Positions 9,112-54,779 of a stretch of DNA of 61,639 bases are shown here, one piece after another. The stretch lies in IMG/VR virus record IMGVR_UViG_3300043444_000203, positions 1 to 61,639 of that record; one strand, written 5' to 3'. Position numbers and translations under genes: made by a program. The stretch's first letter is position 1; each line of letters begins with the position of its first letter. The notes beneath the pieces were generated by a model that was given only the letters and a program-made list of their open reading frames with translations, did no database searches and was not told the DNA's origin. Origin of the DNA: a virus.

Positions 9112-10368
9112 TTATATATTAATGATTTTTTTTATCTCTTCAATCTGTTCTTGTTGTTCTTTGATTGCTTCAATTAAGAACGCAACTAATTTATCGTATG
9201 CTACGGTTTTATATCTGTCGCCTTCTGGTGCTTCAAATATCGAATCAATAACAAGTTCTGGTGCAATTTTTTCAACATCTGTAGAAAGAATACCATAATC
9301 ATACTCACCTGGATGACCAATGACTGAACTTTCGATCCATTTGAATTTTACACCATTCAACTGTTTGATTTTTTCAAGTGCGTTTGTTACAGGAACAATT
9401 TCTTCTTTCAATCTTGGATCAGAATATGCTGTGATGTTACCAGCAGCCGTCATATCACCACTACTCAAATGAGTATACCATCTCCATGATGATGCTGACC
9501 AACCTCCCATGCCCATATAACTATCATTTCTCAAATGTAAATGTGCGCCATAAGTTCCTGAGCAATGAAATGAAATACACGCAACATTACCGTCACCTGT
9601 ACCACCATTATTCATAATCTCTAAGCCGGATTGATTACCGCTTGATACACTACCTGCATATGGTCCAAGTCTTGTGTGTCCCTGTAATTGTGTTGTGCCA
9701 TTAGGATCAACATAATATGATGTATCATTACTATCGTAAAAAATTGGTGCTCTGAATGAACCGTACTCAGCATAAACTGTTCCGCCAAAATATGCGTTAT
9801 TGTTATTAACGTTAATTCTTAAAGGCCAATCACTTACACCAGATGTTGTCCATGATGTGCTATCTGCGGTACCTCTAAGAATGTAAAAATAATCACTATT
9901 CTGGTGAATCATAGACACATAGTTGTTTGTGTCTCTTAAATAAATTGTTGGTGATGCATTTCTGATGTATAAATCAGAACTGTTAGTGCTTGATGCGAAA
10001 TCTGTTCCGGGTCCGGTAGGTCCTGATGGACCAGTTGGTCCTGTTGGTCCGGTAGGACCTGTTGGTCCCGCCGCACCTGTTGCGCCCGTAGGACCGGTAG
10101 GACCTGCGCTTCCGTTTGCACCTGATGGACCAGTTGGTCCGGTTGGTCCCGCAGGTCCTGTGGGCCCTGTAACGCCTGTTGCACCTTGCTCACCTGTCGG
10201 CCCTGTAACGCCTGTTGCTCCGACTGGTCCCGTTGGACCCTGAACACCAGACAATCCTGTTGCACCAACAAGACCAGTGCTTGGACCTACCCATGCACCA
10301 CTTGAATCGACAATCGCCGTATTGCCAACTGTGATACCATTCTTTACAATAAAATTATGATTAGCCAT
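9112..10368 (-). CDS. collagen-like tail fibre with C-terminal S74 chaperone domain
   Basis: A 418-residue fibre. Residues 1-35 form an N-terminal module ([20 protein letters not shown] then SSGAWVGPS) shared almost exactly with two other genes here. About residues 35-120 are Gly-x-y collagen-like repeats of GPTGPTGAT type. A beta-structured body follows, then a peptidase S74 intramolecular chaperone from [13 protein letters not shown] to a coiled-coil end. S74 domains trimerise fibres and release themselves by self-cleavage near the Ser of the Y-S-D segment. There is no clear ribosome binding site. It is probably a receptor-binding or decoration fibre. Confidence 0.85.
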
Positions 10369-51357: not shown

Positions 51358-52146
51358 ATGGCATTTCAACCAAATCAATTCTTATCAAACATCAAAGCCA
51401 AAGGTGGCTTGGCAAAACCAAGTCGCTTTCAGGTAGTATTGCCTATTCCAACATATATCAATAGTTTTGTTGGTCAATCTATCTTTGAAAAACTAACAAA
51501 CTTGCCAGCAACAATTACGGCTGAGTTGCAAGACATATTTGCCACTGAGCGAAAAGATGCACAATCTAGAACTGCTAATCCTACACTATCGAGATATCTA
51601 GGACTGCAATGTGAGTCTTCTGAACTACCAGGGAAAACATTAGTTACTGCTGATGCCAAAGTATATGGACCAACATATAAAGTTCCATACCAAACACAGT
51701 ACAACGAGACAACACTAACATTCGTCTGTACGAATGATTTTTATGAGCGTAAATTGTTTGACAGATGGATCGAATCCATTATGCCAACAGATACAAACAA
51801 TTTAAGATTCGCTAAAGATGACACAACAAGATACATGACAAACATTCAAGTTTTGCAGTATGATGATTTCGTAAAACAAATCTATGCTGTAGAAATGATT
51901 GATGCGTATCCAATAGGAATCTCGGCACAACCATTGAGTTGGTCGGAAGATGGATTCCATCGTGTTTCTGTTCAGTTTACATATCAAAGATTTAGAACTA
52001 TCTACGATAGCAGAATCAATATCGCTGACCAAGTGGCAGAGAAAATTGGTGGTTCACTTGGTGAAAGATTACTCAAACCAATTAATCAAATTGACCAAGC
52101 GATTACACAAAAAGTTGGCAACATTGCCACAAGAGTTTTATTATAA
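51358..52146 (+). CDS. 54: baseplate tail tube initiator gp54
   Basis: A 262-residue protein with a tail-tube fold. The N-terminal helix and strand FQPNQFLSNIKAKGGLAKPS are followed by RFQVVLPIP, then LGLQCESSELPGKTLVTADA, YGPTYKVPYQTQYNETTLTF and a strand with FYERKLFDRWIESI. That last pattern is shared with tail tube proteins of the gp19/gp54 type. gp54 lies on gp48 and starts tube polymerisation. A C-terminal helical tail follows about residue 215. It begins directly at the stop of the previous gene. Confidence 0.82.
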   Translation: MAFQPNQFLSNIKAKGGLAKPSRFQVVLPIPTYINSFVGQSIFEKLTNLPATITAELQDIFATERKDAQSRTANPTLSRYLGLQCESSELPGKTLVTADAKVYGPTYKVPYQTQYNETTLTFVCTNDFYERKLFDRWIESIMPTDTNNLRFAKDDTTRYMTNIQVLQYDDFVKQIYAVEMIDAYPIGISAQPLSWSEDGFHRVSVQFTYQRFRTIYDSRINIADQVAEKIGGSLGERLLKPINQIDQAITQKVGNIATRVLL

Positions 52147-52161
52147 TTATTTGGAGTTATT

Positions 52162-52899
52162 ATGTCTTTACCGAAAATTGATGTGCCAGTTTATAGCACG
52201 AAATTGATTTCGACAGGAAAAACAGTTAAGTATAGAGCATTCACAGTTAAAGAGGAAAAGTTATTTCTCATGGCAAACGAGAGTGAGGAAGTTGATACTG
52301 TTATTGATACAATCAAACAGGTTTTGAATAACTGTATTATGACAAAAGGAATTAATGTTGAAGAACTTCCTTTGTTTGACATTGAATATTTGTTTCTGAA
52401 ACTTCGTGCAGTTTCTGTTGGTGAAGTTGTAAATTTGCGTTATAAGTGTAACAACATTCTTCCTAAGTTGGATGATGAAGAAGAAAAGAAGTGTAACCAT
52501 ATCGTTGAGATTGATTTGAATCTGAATGAGATTACTCCAGAATCTGTCAAGATTGACAAGACGATACAAATTACAGATACCATGGGTGTCACAATGAAAT
52601 ATCCAACTTTTGATTTGTTGAAAGAATTTGACGCAAATCAGGAAGTTGATTCTATTATTAAAATGACCGTCAAGTGTATTGACTTCATTTACGATAAAGA
52701 TAATGTTTATTATGCCAAGGATGCTAAAGAAGAAGAACTAATTGATTTTGTGGAAAGTATGCAGACAAAAGACTTGGAGAAGTTGAAAGACTTTTTCAGT
52801 TCTATGCCAAAGTTGAAAAAACAACTAGACTTTAATTGTGTTAAATGTGGCTATCAGGAGAAAATTGAACTGGAAGGAATCCAAAATTTTTTCGGCTAA
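52162..52899 (+). CDS. 26: baseplate hub protein gp26 (zero-frame product)
   Basis: A 245-residue protein similar to T4 gp26 (208 residues): YRAFTVKEEKLFLMANESEE near residues 24-43, then LFDIEYLFLKLRAVSVGEVV near 71-90. Two CxC-type pairs (C96/C111 and C226/C229 in CVKCG) suggest a zinc ribbon. T4 gp26 takes part in hub assembly with gp51. The gene ends with CAA AAT TTT TTC GGC TAA, which contains two -1 slippery heptamers, A-AAT-TTT and T-TTT-TTC. A GGAG site precedes the ATG. See the next entry and the findings for the frameshift product. Confidence 0.78.
   Translation: MSLPKIDVPVYSTKLISTGKTVKYRAFTVKEEKLFLMANESEEVDTVIDTIKQVLNNCIMTKGINVEELPLFDIEYLFLKLRAVSVGEVVNLRYKCNNILPKLDDEEEKKCNHIVEIDLNLNEITPESVKIDKTIQITDTMGVTMKYPTFDLLKEFDANQEVDSIIKMTVKCIDFIYDKDNVYYAKDAKEEELIDFVESMQTKDLEKLKDFFSSMPKLKKQLDFNCVKCGYQEKIELEGIQNFFG
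52884..52893 (+). promoter_or_regulatory. putative -1 ribosomal frameshift site
   Basis: Two overlapping heptamers of the X-XXY-YYZ type in the correct phase: A-AAT-TTT (52884-52890) and T-TTT-TTC (52887-52893), four to six bases before the gene 26 stop at 52897. The -1 frame downstream stays open for 64 codons. Confidence 0.65.
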
Positions 52900-53087
52900 C
52901 GTTTGGTTATGAGAATCTAACTAATCATTTCCAAACGAATTTTGCATTGATGCAACACCACAAATACAGTTTGACAGAGTTAGAGAATATGGTGCCTTGG
53001 GAAAGAATCATCTATGTGAATATGTTGATGCAATATTTGGAACAAGAAAACGAAAAATTAAAACAAGCGCAAGCGCAGAGGCGATAA
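52893..53087 (+). CDS. -1 frame extension of gene 26 (tail-assembly-chaperone-like, probable frameshift product)
   Basis: An open frame of 64 codons continues in the -1 frame from the end of gene 26 to TAA at 53085-53087, directly before the next ATG. It reads RLTFGYENLTNHFQTNFALM, then QHHKYSLTELENMVPWERII, ending LEQENEKLKQAQAQRR. The LxxNFxLMxHHKYSLxELExMxPWER pattern looks like a conserved protein, similar in plan to the T part of phage gpGT chaperones. The first ATG in frame (52950) has no ribosome binding site and would cut off the conserved-looking start, so entry by frameshift at 52884-52893 is preferred (fusion of about 308 residues). A 45-aa independent protein is the alternative. 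Confidence 0.7.
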   Translation, partial: RLTFGYENLTNHFQTNFALMQHHKYSLTELENMVPWERIIYVNMLMQYLEQENEKLKQAQAQRR

Positions 53088-54779
53088 ATGGCAGATAAGA
53101 GCAGTAGACTAGCAAACATTCTAAAACAAGAATATCAATCCAAAGGTATCGTTGGAGGTTTGGCTTCAGCCACCGGCAAACGAGCACTTGAAAAATTGGA
53201 TATCAGAAACGCACTATTCGGTGGTTCTGGTGTTGGCTCACTTATCGGTAGAAAAATCTTCGGTAAGGGTTATTCTGCTATCAATGAAAAAACTCCTGTT
53301 GATAAAATATCATCACAATCGGCTGCACTATCTGTCGATAAATTAGACACCATCGGCACAAACACACAGATTGCCGCTAAAAATTCAATGGCTCTACCAT
53401 CTATGGCAAGAGATATGAATGTGATGCGCCAGAATATTTCCAAGTTAGTTAAACTTCAAGGTGGAACTGCAACGAATAAAGCAGATGCATTTTTTGCAAA
53501 CGCAAAAGACCGTGAAGGTGCATATGAAGCACAGTTTGGCGCCAAAAAGCAAACAGCACCGACAAAAGTTTCCGAAAAGAAAGATGACAAAGGTTTCTTG
53601 GGTATTTTAGCAGGCGCTTTAGCATTAGGTGTTTCTAAAATATTTGACGGATTAAAATCCGTGGTTGGTTCAGTAACAGGTATTTTCGGAACTTTATTGA
53701 GAATTCTTCCTGGTGTAACTTCTTTACTTGAAGGTATGGCAACAGTTTTGAGAACTGGAATAGGTGCATTATTATCACCTTTGGGTTTATTGACTGCAGG
53801 TCTAACTGCGGCAGTTGTTGCGATTAAATTCTTCAGCGATAAAATTTTAGATAGAGCAGAAAAAGAAGGCGGCAAAGAAGGTAGAGACCTTGCATCACAA
53901 TCAATAGCCGAAACTATGTCTGGTGCTATGGACGGAAATTTCGTAACAGGCACAAACTCATACGGAGAAAATCTTGCTGGTCCTGATGCTATGGCAGAAG
54001 CCAGAAGAAAACAAGAACTTGTTTTAAATGCACAACGAATGGAAGGCTATAAAACAAGGGCAGGTGTTGGTCGTGATACATCACCAACAAAAGAAATTGA
54101 TGCCGGCAAAAGACAAATTTTGGATTTCATTGGAAACAAAGAAGGTGGTCCTGCACAATACAATGCGTTGGTTTATGGAAACAATACTCCAAAAAGCGCA
54201 GACTTAACAAACATGTCGATACAAGATGTTATGAATTATCAATCAGGTATGATTGCTAGAGGACACGCAAGCACAGCAGTTGGTCGTTATCAATTCTTAA
54301 AAGGCACACTTGAAGATTTGGTCAGACAATCTGGTATTTCAACTTCAGAAAAATTTACACCCGAAGTTCAGGATCAGTTGGCAGGCATTCTAGTTGATAG
54401 AGCAGGTTATCAAAAATTCAAAGAAGGCAAAATTGGATTAGAACAATTCCAAAGTAAACTAGCGGGCACTTGGGCCAGTTTGCCTAAAGCAGATGGAACA
54501 TCCGATTATACAGGTATTGCAGGAAATAAAGTTTTAACATCAGCATCAGCACTACAAAATGTTTTGATGGCTTCCGCTGGTGGCACATCTGGTGGAACGC
54601 TATCACAATCTAGCACACAAATGGCTTCTTTGACCCGTGAGTCCATGTCACCAACTGCACCAATTGTGAATGTTACTGCACCATCTGCACCACAAACACA
54701 ACAACAGGCACCGATAACAATCGCATCAGCCGATGTGCTTGATTCAGACTTCGGTAGACTACTAGCCAGAATGTACTAA
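53088..54779 (+). CDS. 29: gp29-like tape measure/hub protein with lambda-R-like lysozyme domain
   Basis: A 563-residue protein (T4 gp29: 590). The N-terminal third is helical, and residues about 168-250 are hydrophobic, as in tape-measure proteins. Residues about 342-480 resemble the phage lambda R lytic transglycosylase family: ILDFIGNKEGG with E352 in the place of the catalytic Glu, STAVGRYQFL (395-404) like the lambda STGAGRYQLL, and TWASLP (461-466) like IWASLP. The C-terminus ends DFGRLLARMY. It probably sets tail length and carries the cell-wall-cutting activity that T4 keeps in gp5. It begins directly after the frameshift frame. Confidence 0.78.
   Translation: MADKSSRLANILKQEYQSKGIVGGLASATGKRALEKLDIRNALFGGSGVGSLIGRKIFGKGYSAINEKTPVDKISSQSAALSVDKLDTIGTNTQIAAKNSMALPSMARDMNVMRQNISKLVKLQGGTATNKADAFFANAKDREGAYEAQFGAKKQTAPTKVSEKKDDKGFLGILAGALALGVSKIFDGLKSVVGSVTGIFGTLLRILPGVTSLLEGMATVLRTGIGALLSPLGLLTAGLTAAVVAIKFFSDKILDRAEKEGGKEGRDLASQSIAETMSGAMDGNFVTGTNSYGENLAGPDAMAEARRKQELVLNAQRMEGYKTRAGVGRDTSPTKEIDAGKRQILDFIGNKEGGPAQYNALVYGNNTPKSADLTNMSIQDVMNYQSGMIARGHASTAVGRYQFLKGTLEDLVRQSGISTSEKFTPEVQDQLAGILVDRAGYQKFKEGKIGLEQFQSKLAGTWASLPKADGTSDYTGIAGNKVLTSASALQNVLMASAGGTSGGTLSQSSTQMASLTRESMSPTAPIVNVTAPSAPQTQQQAPITIASADVLDSDFGRLLARMY

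Follow-up and report, generated by a model that had tools for sequence, protein, structure and literature searches.

We find that gene 26 of a T4-like virus and the -1 reading frame at its 3′ end very probably encode a two-product tail assembly chaperone, resembling the gpG/gpGT pair of phage lambda, whose longer form would be made by -1 frameshifting. The stretch of DNA analyzed, called the window below, is a 61,639-base IMG/VR virus fragment (IMGVR_UViG_3300043444_000203) with T4-like tail genes aboard. Gene 26 matches PF12322 T4_baseplate with an E-value of 2.1e-62 (211 bits, against a curated cut-off of 24.5) and phrog_150 with an E-value of 8.8e-67. Its zero frame ends in ATC CAA AAT TTT TTC GGC TAA, and the two overlapping heptamers which an earlier note, made from the letters alone, had singled out just before this stop, A_AAT_TTT and T_TTT_TTC, are both in the correct phase. 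The same note had described a -1 frame that is open for 64 codons and ends exactly at the next gene, and this is indeed the case: after a shift, the open codons run from 52893 to 53084 and end in a TAA stop at 53085-53087, with the ATG of the next gene coming immediately after it. The -1 segment, which had been thought conserved by its look, matches phrog_634, “baseplate hub assembly catalyst” (the gp51 family), with an E-value of 1.2e-24, and the predicted fusion of gene 26 with this extension would be about 308 aa long. The features of the locus are listed in Table 1.

Table 1. Features of the gene 26 locus, in window positions
Feature	Position	Strand	Basis
Gene 26, short product (gpG-like, 245 aa)	52162..52899	+	PF12322 T4_baseplate, phrog_150, AF2 model
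Shine-Dalgarno-like GAAGGA, possible stimulator	52873..52878	+	8 nt upstream of heptamer; putative role
A_AAT_TTT heptamer	52884..52890	+	In phase; in 38/120 dereplicated relatives only
T_TTT_TTC slippery heptamer, conserved shift site	52887..52893	+	T_TTT_TTY in 120/120 relatives; T_TTT_TTC in 79/79 marine loci
-1 frame extension (T domain, 64 codons + stop)	52893..53087	+	phrog_634 match; dN/dS; stop-free in 117 relatives
Stem-loop CGTTTGG...CCAAACG, possible stimulator	52900..52937	+	6 nt past heptamer; predicted
First possible -1-frame internal starts (TTG, ATG), judged unused	52947..52952	+	No Shine-Dalgarno at corresponding ATG, 126/127
Next gene, 563 aa, tape-measure candidate, lysozyme-like C-terminal region	53088..54779	+	phrog_90, phrog_430 matches

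Relatives of the locus were gathered from IMG/VR using gene 26 and the -1 peptide as queries, and 120 loci remained after removal of near copies; one locus (L046), with an early stop within gene 26, was excluded as a probable sequencing error. T_TTT_TTY precedes the gene 26 stop in every one of the 120 relatives, and TTTTTTC in all 79 dereplicated loci of a marine cyanophage-like set, although these loci share descent and the counts are therefore not of independent events. The 120 comprise 114 loci with TTTTTTC and 3 with TTTTTTT, exactly ten bases ahead of the stop, and a further 3 in which the stop is displaced downstream by 1 to about 12 codons. Only one of the two heptamers thus holds as a shift site: AAATTTT is found in just 38 of the 120 relatives, most of the others having AGT TTT, and was rejected on that ground. 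The codons themselves depart from the usage of the gene: all 117 relatives have TTT as the first slippery Phe codon and 114 of the 117 have TTC as the second, while Phe elsewhere in gene 26 is encoded by TTT in 74% and by TTC in 26% of cases. Moreover, the CG of the -1-frame Arg codon that overlaps the end of gene 26 is kept in 114 of 117 relatives though the zero-frame residue varies (Val, Gly, Ala, Glu), the pattern expected from selection for the -1-frame Arg codon.

A T_TTT_TT before the gp26 stop, with an open -1 frame, is also present in the cyanophages S-PM2, P-SSM2 and S-RIM8, and the layout recurs in Caulobacter phage Cr30, Sinorhizobium phage phiM7, Nitratidesulfovibrio phage SRB7757, Aeromonas phage avDM12, Vibrio phages ValKK3 and D482, Rhizobium phage RHph_N34 and Stenotrophomonas phage BUCT608, the last slippery base being C, T or G across the named phages. 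Two variants were seen beside this layout. At four loci (L152, L166, L174 and L192, Pelagibacter phage Mosig), the heptamer is fixed and the zero-frame stop comes 1 to about 12 codons later, which gives the short product a variable tail. At five Ackermannviridae loci (L087, L088, L092, L190 and L191), an open and conserved -1 frame follows gp26 without a tandem slippery heptamer, gp26 ending in ATT TTC ATT TAA or TCA CTT TTY, with a TAATG overlap in some and none in others.

The -1 frame bears the marks of a translated sequence from the gene 26 stop onward. Between that stop and the first internal start its dN/dS is 0.10 (bootstrap 0.07-0.13; 48 disjoint pairs of relatives), and beyond this start it is 0.07 (48 disjoint pairs), while the other two frames of the segment give values above 1. 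The -1 frame is free of stops in all of 117 relatives, whereas stops occur in 97/117 and 117/117 in the other two frames, and a comparison of the junctions, which the earlier note had called for, found in the window's clade no -1-frame stop before the small-frame peptide and a slippery site in all relatives. The note had also counted a single internal ATG without a ribosome binding site. There are in fact four in-frame ATGs (peptide ...FALMQHH...ENMVP...VNMLMQ...), the first at 52950 and preceded by a TTG at 52947, whereas the statement about the binding site was borne out, a 4-nt Shine-Dalgarno match being present at 1 of 127 internal ATGs compared with 56 of 56 gene 26 starts. Such strong selection on the codons ahead of the internal start is incompatible with translation beginning there, and initiation at this TTG or ATG was rejected because selection already acts upstream and a Shine-Dalgarno is missing. 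A search of the clade for an independent start with a ribosome binding site for the small frame found none that was convincing. We therefore judge from the sequences that independent initiation of the downstream segment is absent in the window's clade, a judgment that holds less clearly for lineages in which an ATG overlaps the stop.

Such lineages bear on the reading of the -1 ORF as a separate small gene, a free gp51 made by termination-reinitiation or from an internal start with no fusion. The segment is annotated as a separate gene in public records, its start overlaps the stop (TAATG or TGATG) in Cr30, ValKK3, phiM7, BUCT608 and D482, and an ATG is present 5 nt past the stop's first base in 48 of the 79 marine loci. 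However, the first in-frame start in most loci of the window's clade lies about 50 nt beyond the stop and has no Shine-Dalgarno, although strong selection acts on the codons ahead of it; the heptamer and the overlapping -1 Arg codon are conserved in this same clade, which seldom has an overlapping ATG; and the T run persists in lineages with and without an overlapping ATG. We thus regard a separate gene in place of a fusion as quite improbable, while a separately initiated small protein, or free T domain, is possible in those lineages whose start overlaps the stop or lies just past it.

Two further explanations concern the T run itself. RNA polymerase could slip on the six T, and one extra U would lead to the same frame, so that the conservation of the run fits this mechanism as well. 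Six T are, however, short for slippage by a bacterial polymerase, and the run is held at six and ends in C, with T7 in just 3 of 117 relatives even though Phe is preferentially encoded by TTT; the terminal C may also be held by the -1 Arg codon. The run is phased precisely as a tandem -1 heptamer would be, and many loci have a hairpin downstream at ribosomal spacing. We consider polymerase slippage less likely still than a separate gene. As for a chance overlap, in which the open -1 frame and the heptamers would be functionless, A-T-rich DNA does give slippery-looking runs, and an open run as long as the -1 frame arose in 190 of 20,000 dinucleotide shuffles (about 1%). Against this stand conservation in about 200 dereplicated loci, dN/dS values of 0.07-0.10 and homology to gp51, leaving chance with a practically negligible probability. 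The ORFs of the window contain 8 in-phase T6 or A6 heptamers in about 19,963 codons, and among these only that of gene 26 lies 4 codons from a stop and opens a long -1 frame. An in-phase A7 run 7 codons before the stop of the minus-strand ORF 9112-10368 was considered as a second frameshift site and judged to be due to chance, its -1 frame closing at once.

With frameshifting at T_TTT_TTC as the preferred reading, two neighboring elements are candidate stimulators. The stem-loop after the gene 26 stop has a z-score of -3.7 against shuffles and of -4.6 against synonymous recodings, being more stable than all 500 of these, and in the window together with its six nearest relatives it outdoes all 500 recodings with z-scores of -3.9 to -5.3. 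A strong hairpin is also found at the same place in the marine loci (mean z -3.1 against shuffles and -3.7 against recodings), where the controls are mostly near zero, one downstream control reaching -1.6. Across the wider, freshwater clade of the window it is no general feature (mean z -0.49), and a hairpin conserved throughout that clade was rejected, strong ones being confined to the window, its six nearest relatives and the marine loci. Within the window's clade, the hairpin would thus be at most a lineage-specific aid to the slip. Stems of the S-PM2 type show, by eye, a C-G to T-A double change, and those of the P-SSM2 type have base-pair changes without clear covariation. Upstream of the heptamer, GGA or GGG encodes a conserved Gly in 73 of 117 relatives, compared with 155 of 683 Gly residues in the rest of gene 26, a preference that yields the Shine-Dalgarno-like GAAGGA, a second putative stimulator.

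The predicted fold of gp26 may fit a chaperone role. The AF2 model has a pLDDT of 87, and a direct Foldseek search with it gave no significant match. When the Foldseek candidates were realigned to gp26 residues 1-96, the best were 3fgx (Z 8.4), 2ob9, the HK97 tail assembly chaperone (7.1), 3klu, YqbN (6.3), and 5ir0 (5.2), the next row being at 2.8, which lends some support to the likeness to a gpG/gpGT pair proposed in the earlier note. The top three matches (Z 6.3-8.4) cover about 85 residues of the N-terminal part only and are moderate by the calibration of the tool. A Z near 7-8 alone is no proof of a chaperone fold, and the identities of the matches agree with the anatomy of the locus. 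The 563-aa product of the next gene has hydrophobic and lysozyme-like parts, its C terminus matching phrog_90 and phrog_430 (endolysin and tail-lysozyme families), which suggests a tape measure or a hub protein with a lysozyme-like domain; it has no sequence match to gp29 of the T4-type phage RB14.

The relation to T4-type phages was sought in their gp26 and gp51. In RB14, residues 1-201 of gp51 match PF12322, the gp26 family, and residues 147-246 match phrog_634. A profile built from the -1 peptides found 8 of 8 T4-type gp51 proteins, with E-values of 1.7e-11 to 1.4e-3, and 0 of 8 T4-type gp26 proteins (best E-value 0.19). With a gp26-like N-terminal part and a C terminus of the -1 type, T4-type gp51 is thus the single-frame counterpart of the frameshift fusion. 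This supports the earlier suggestion that genes 26 and 51 derive from a frameshifted chaperone pair. In a tree of gp26-like domains, T4-type gp26 and gp51 group together, apart from every frameshift-type sequence (100/98), which fits a single duplication in a T4 branch that also lost the heptamer. As the tree is unrooted, this direction is inferred from the frameshift form being the more widespread one. T4-type phages (Straboviridae, e.g., RB14) share the gp26 family and the -1 domain with the window and differ in carrying the fusion as a separate full-length gene, usually divergent from gene 26, with no heptamer in RB14 gp26. Klebsiella phage phi1_146015 (L183, positions 1501-2794) has its gp51-like gene and a gp26-like gene of very divergent sequence arranged in tandem on the same strand, whereas those of RB14 form a divergent pair. 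On sequence grounds, it is well supported that “gp51” of the cyanophage type is a frameshift extension rather than a truncated gene.

We propose the following model. Most ribosomes would terminate at 52897-52899, yielding the 245-aa gp26, while a minority, a rate that we infer along with the shift itself, would slip back by one base at T_TTT_TTC and produce the fusion ending at 53087. tRNA-Phe would re-pair perfectly in both the P and the A site after the slip, which in this lineage is probably aided by the downstream hairpin and perhaps by the upstream GAAGGA. By analogy with lambda gpG/gpGT, the short form would coat the tape-measure protein and the fusion would recruit subunits of the tail tube protein, which is encoded at 51358-52146 of the window. 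In T4-type phages, a duplicated gene encodes the whole fusion (gp51) in a single frame. A more elaborate version for the T4-like superfamily, with three products, namely short gp26, the frameshift fusion and a free T domain in lineages whose start overlaps or just follows the stop (Cr30, KVP40-like phages and many marine cyanophages), and with lineage-specific hairpins and the Shine-Dalgarno-like element adjusting the slip, is speculative and in our opinion rather unlikely.

Read in this manner, the small gp51 gene that is widely annotated in cyanophages and their relatives becomes part of a frameshift fusion, and many public records mis-start or omit the fusion product. In several cyanophage records the -1 segment is unannotated, and in others it is begun at an internal ATG (ACG-2014b/d/e, S-CAM4, P-RSM1; L353). 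Cyanophage and marine vibriophage gp51 has been described as shorter at the N terminus than other T4-like gp51 proteins, by the first ~200 residues (PMC3037559). That gp51 is a frameshift extension of gp26 would account for these missing N-terminal residues, which gp26 would supply.

The pair resembles lambda gpG/gpGT in that the -1 shift lies immediately upstream of the short gene's stop and the long form gains a C-terminal domain from the -1 frame, and the predicted fold of the N-terminal domain of gp26 shows a moderate resemblance to the HK97 chaperone. It differs in its site, T_TTT_TTC, that of lambda being G_GGA_AAG, in a larger N domain with a Cys-rich segment and in a T domain of only about 64 residues, the likeness being drawn here from layout and fold. 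A 2016 review states that gpG/gpGT frameshifting is a widely conserved trait of long-tailed phages “except T4” (PMC5009743); many relatives of T4 bear the signature of this tail frameshift, and T4-type phages carry both products as two genes. The idea itself is not new, given that chaperones of T4-like phages are reported to have been identified by Vladimirov, Gautam and Davidson in 2022 (doi 10.1016/j.virol.2021.11.003), with short and fused copies in some of these phages (as cited in PMC10885494), and that poly-T -1 frameshift signals are known in their TAC-N genes (as cited in PMC12846349). What we add is a well-supported further example of a frameshift known from many phages. PMC12846349 also describes a chaperone frameshift in Vandenendeviridae and Andersonviridae, with a GTTTTT motif conserved at the end of TAC-N. 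As in the window, the -1 frame is open throughout and the downstream ORF has been misannotated as a separate gene; these are other phage families, likened here by layout.
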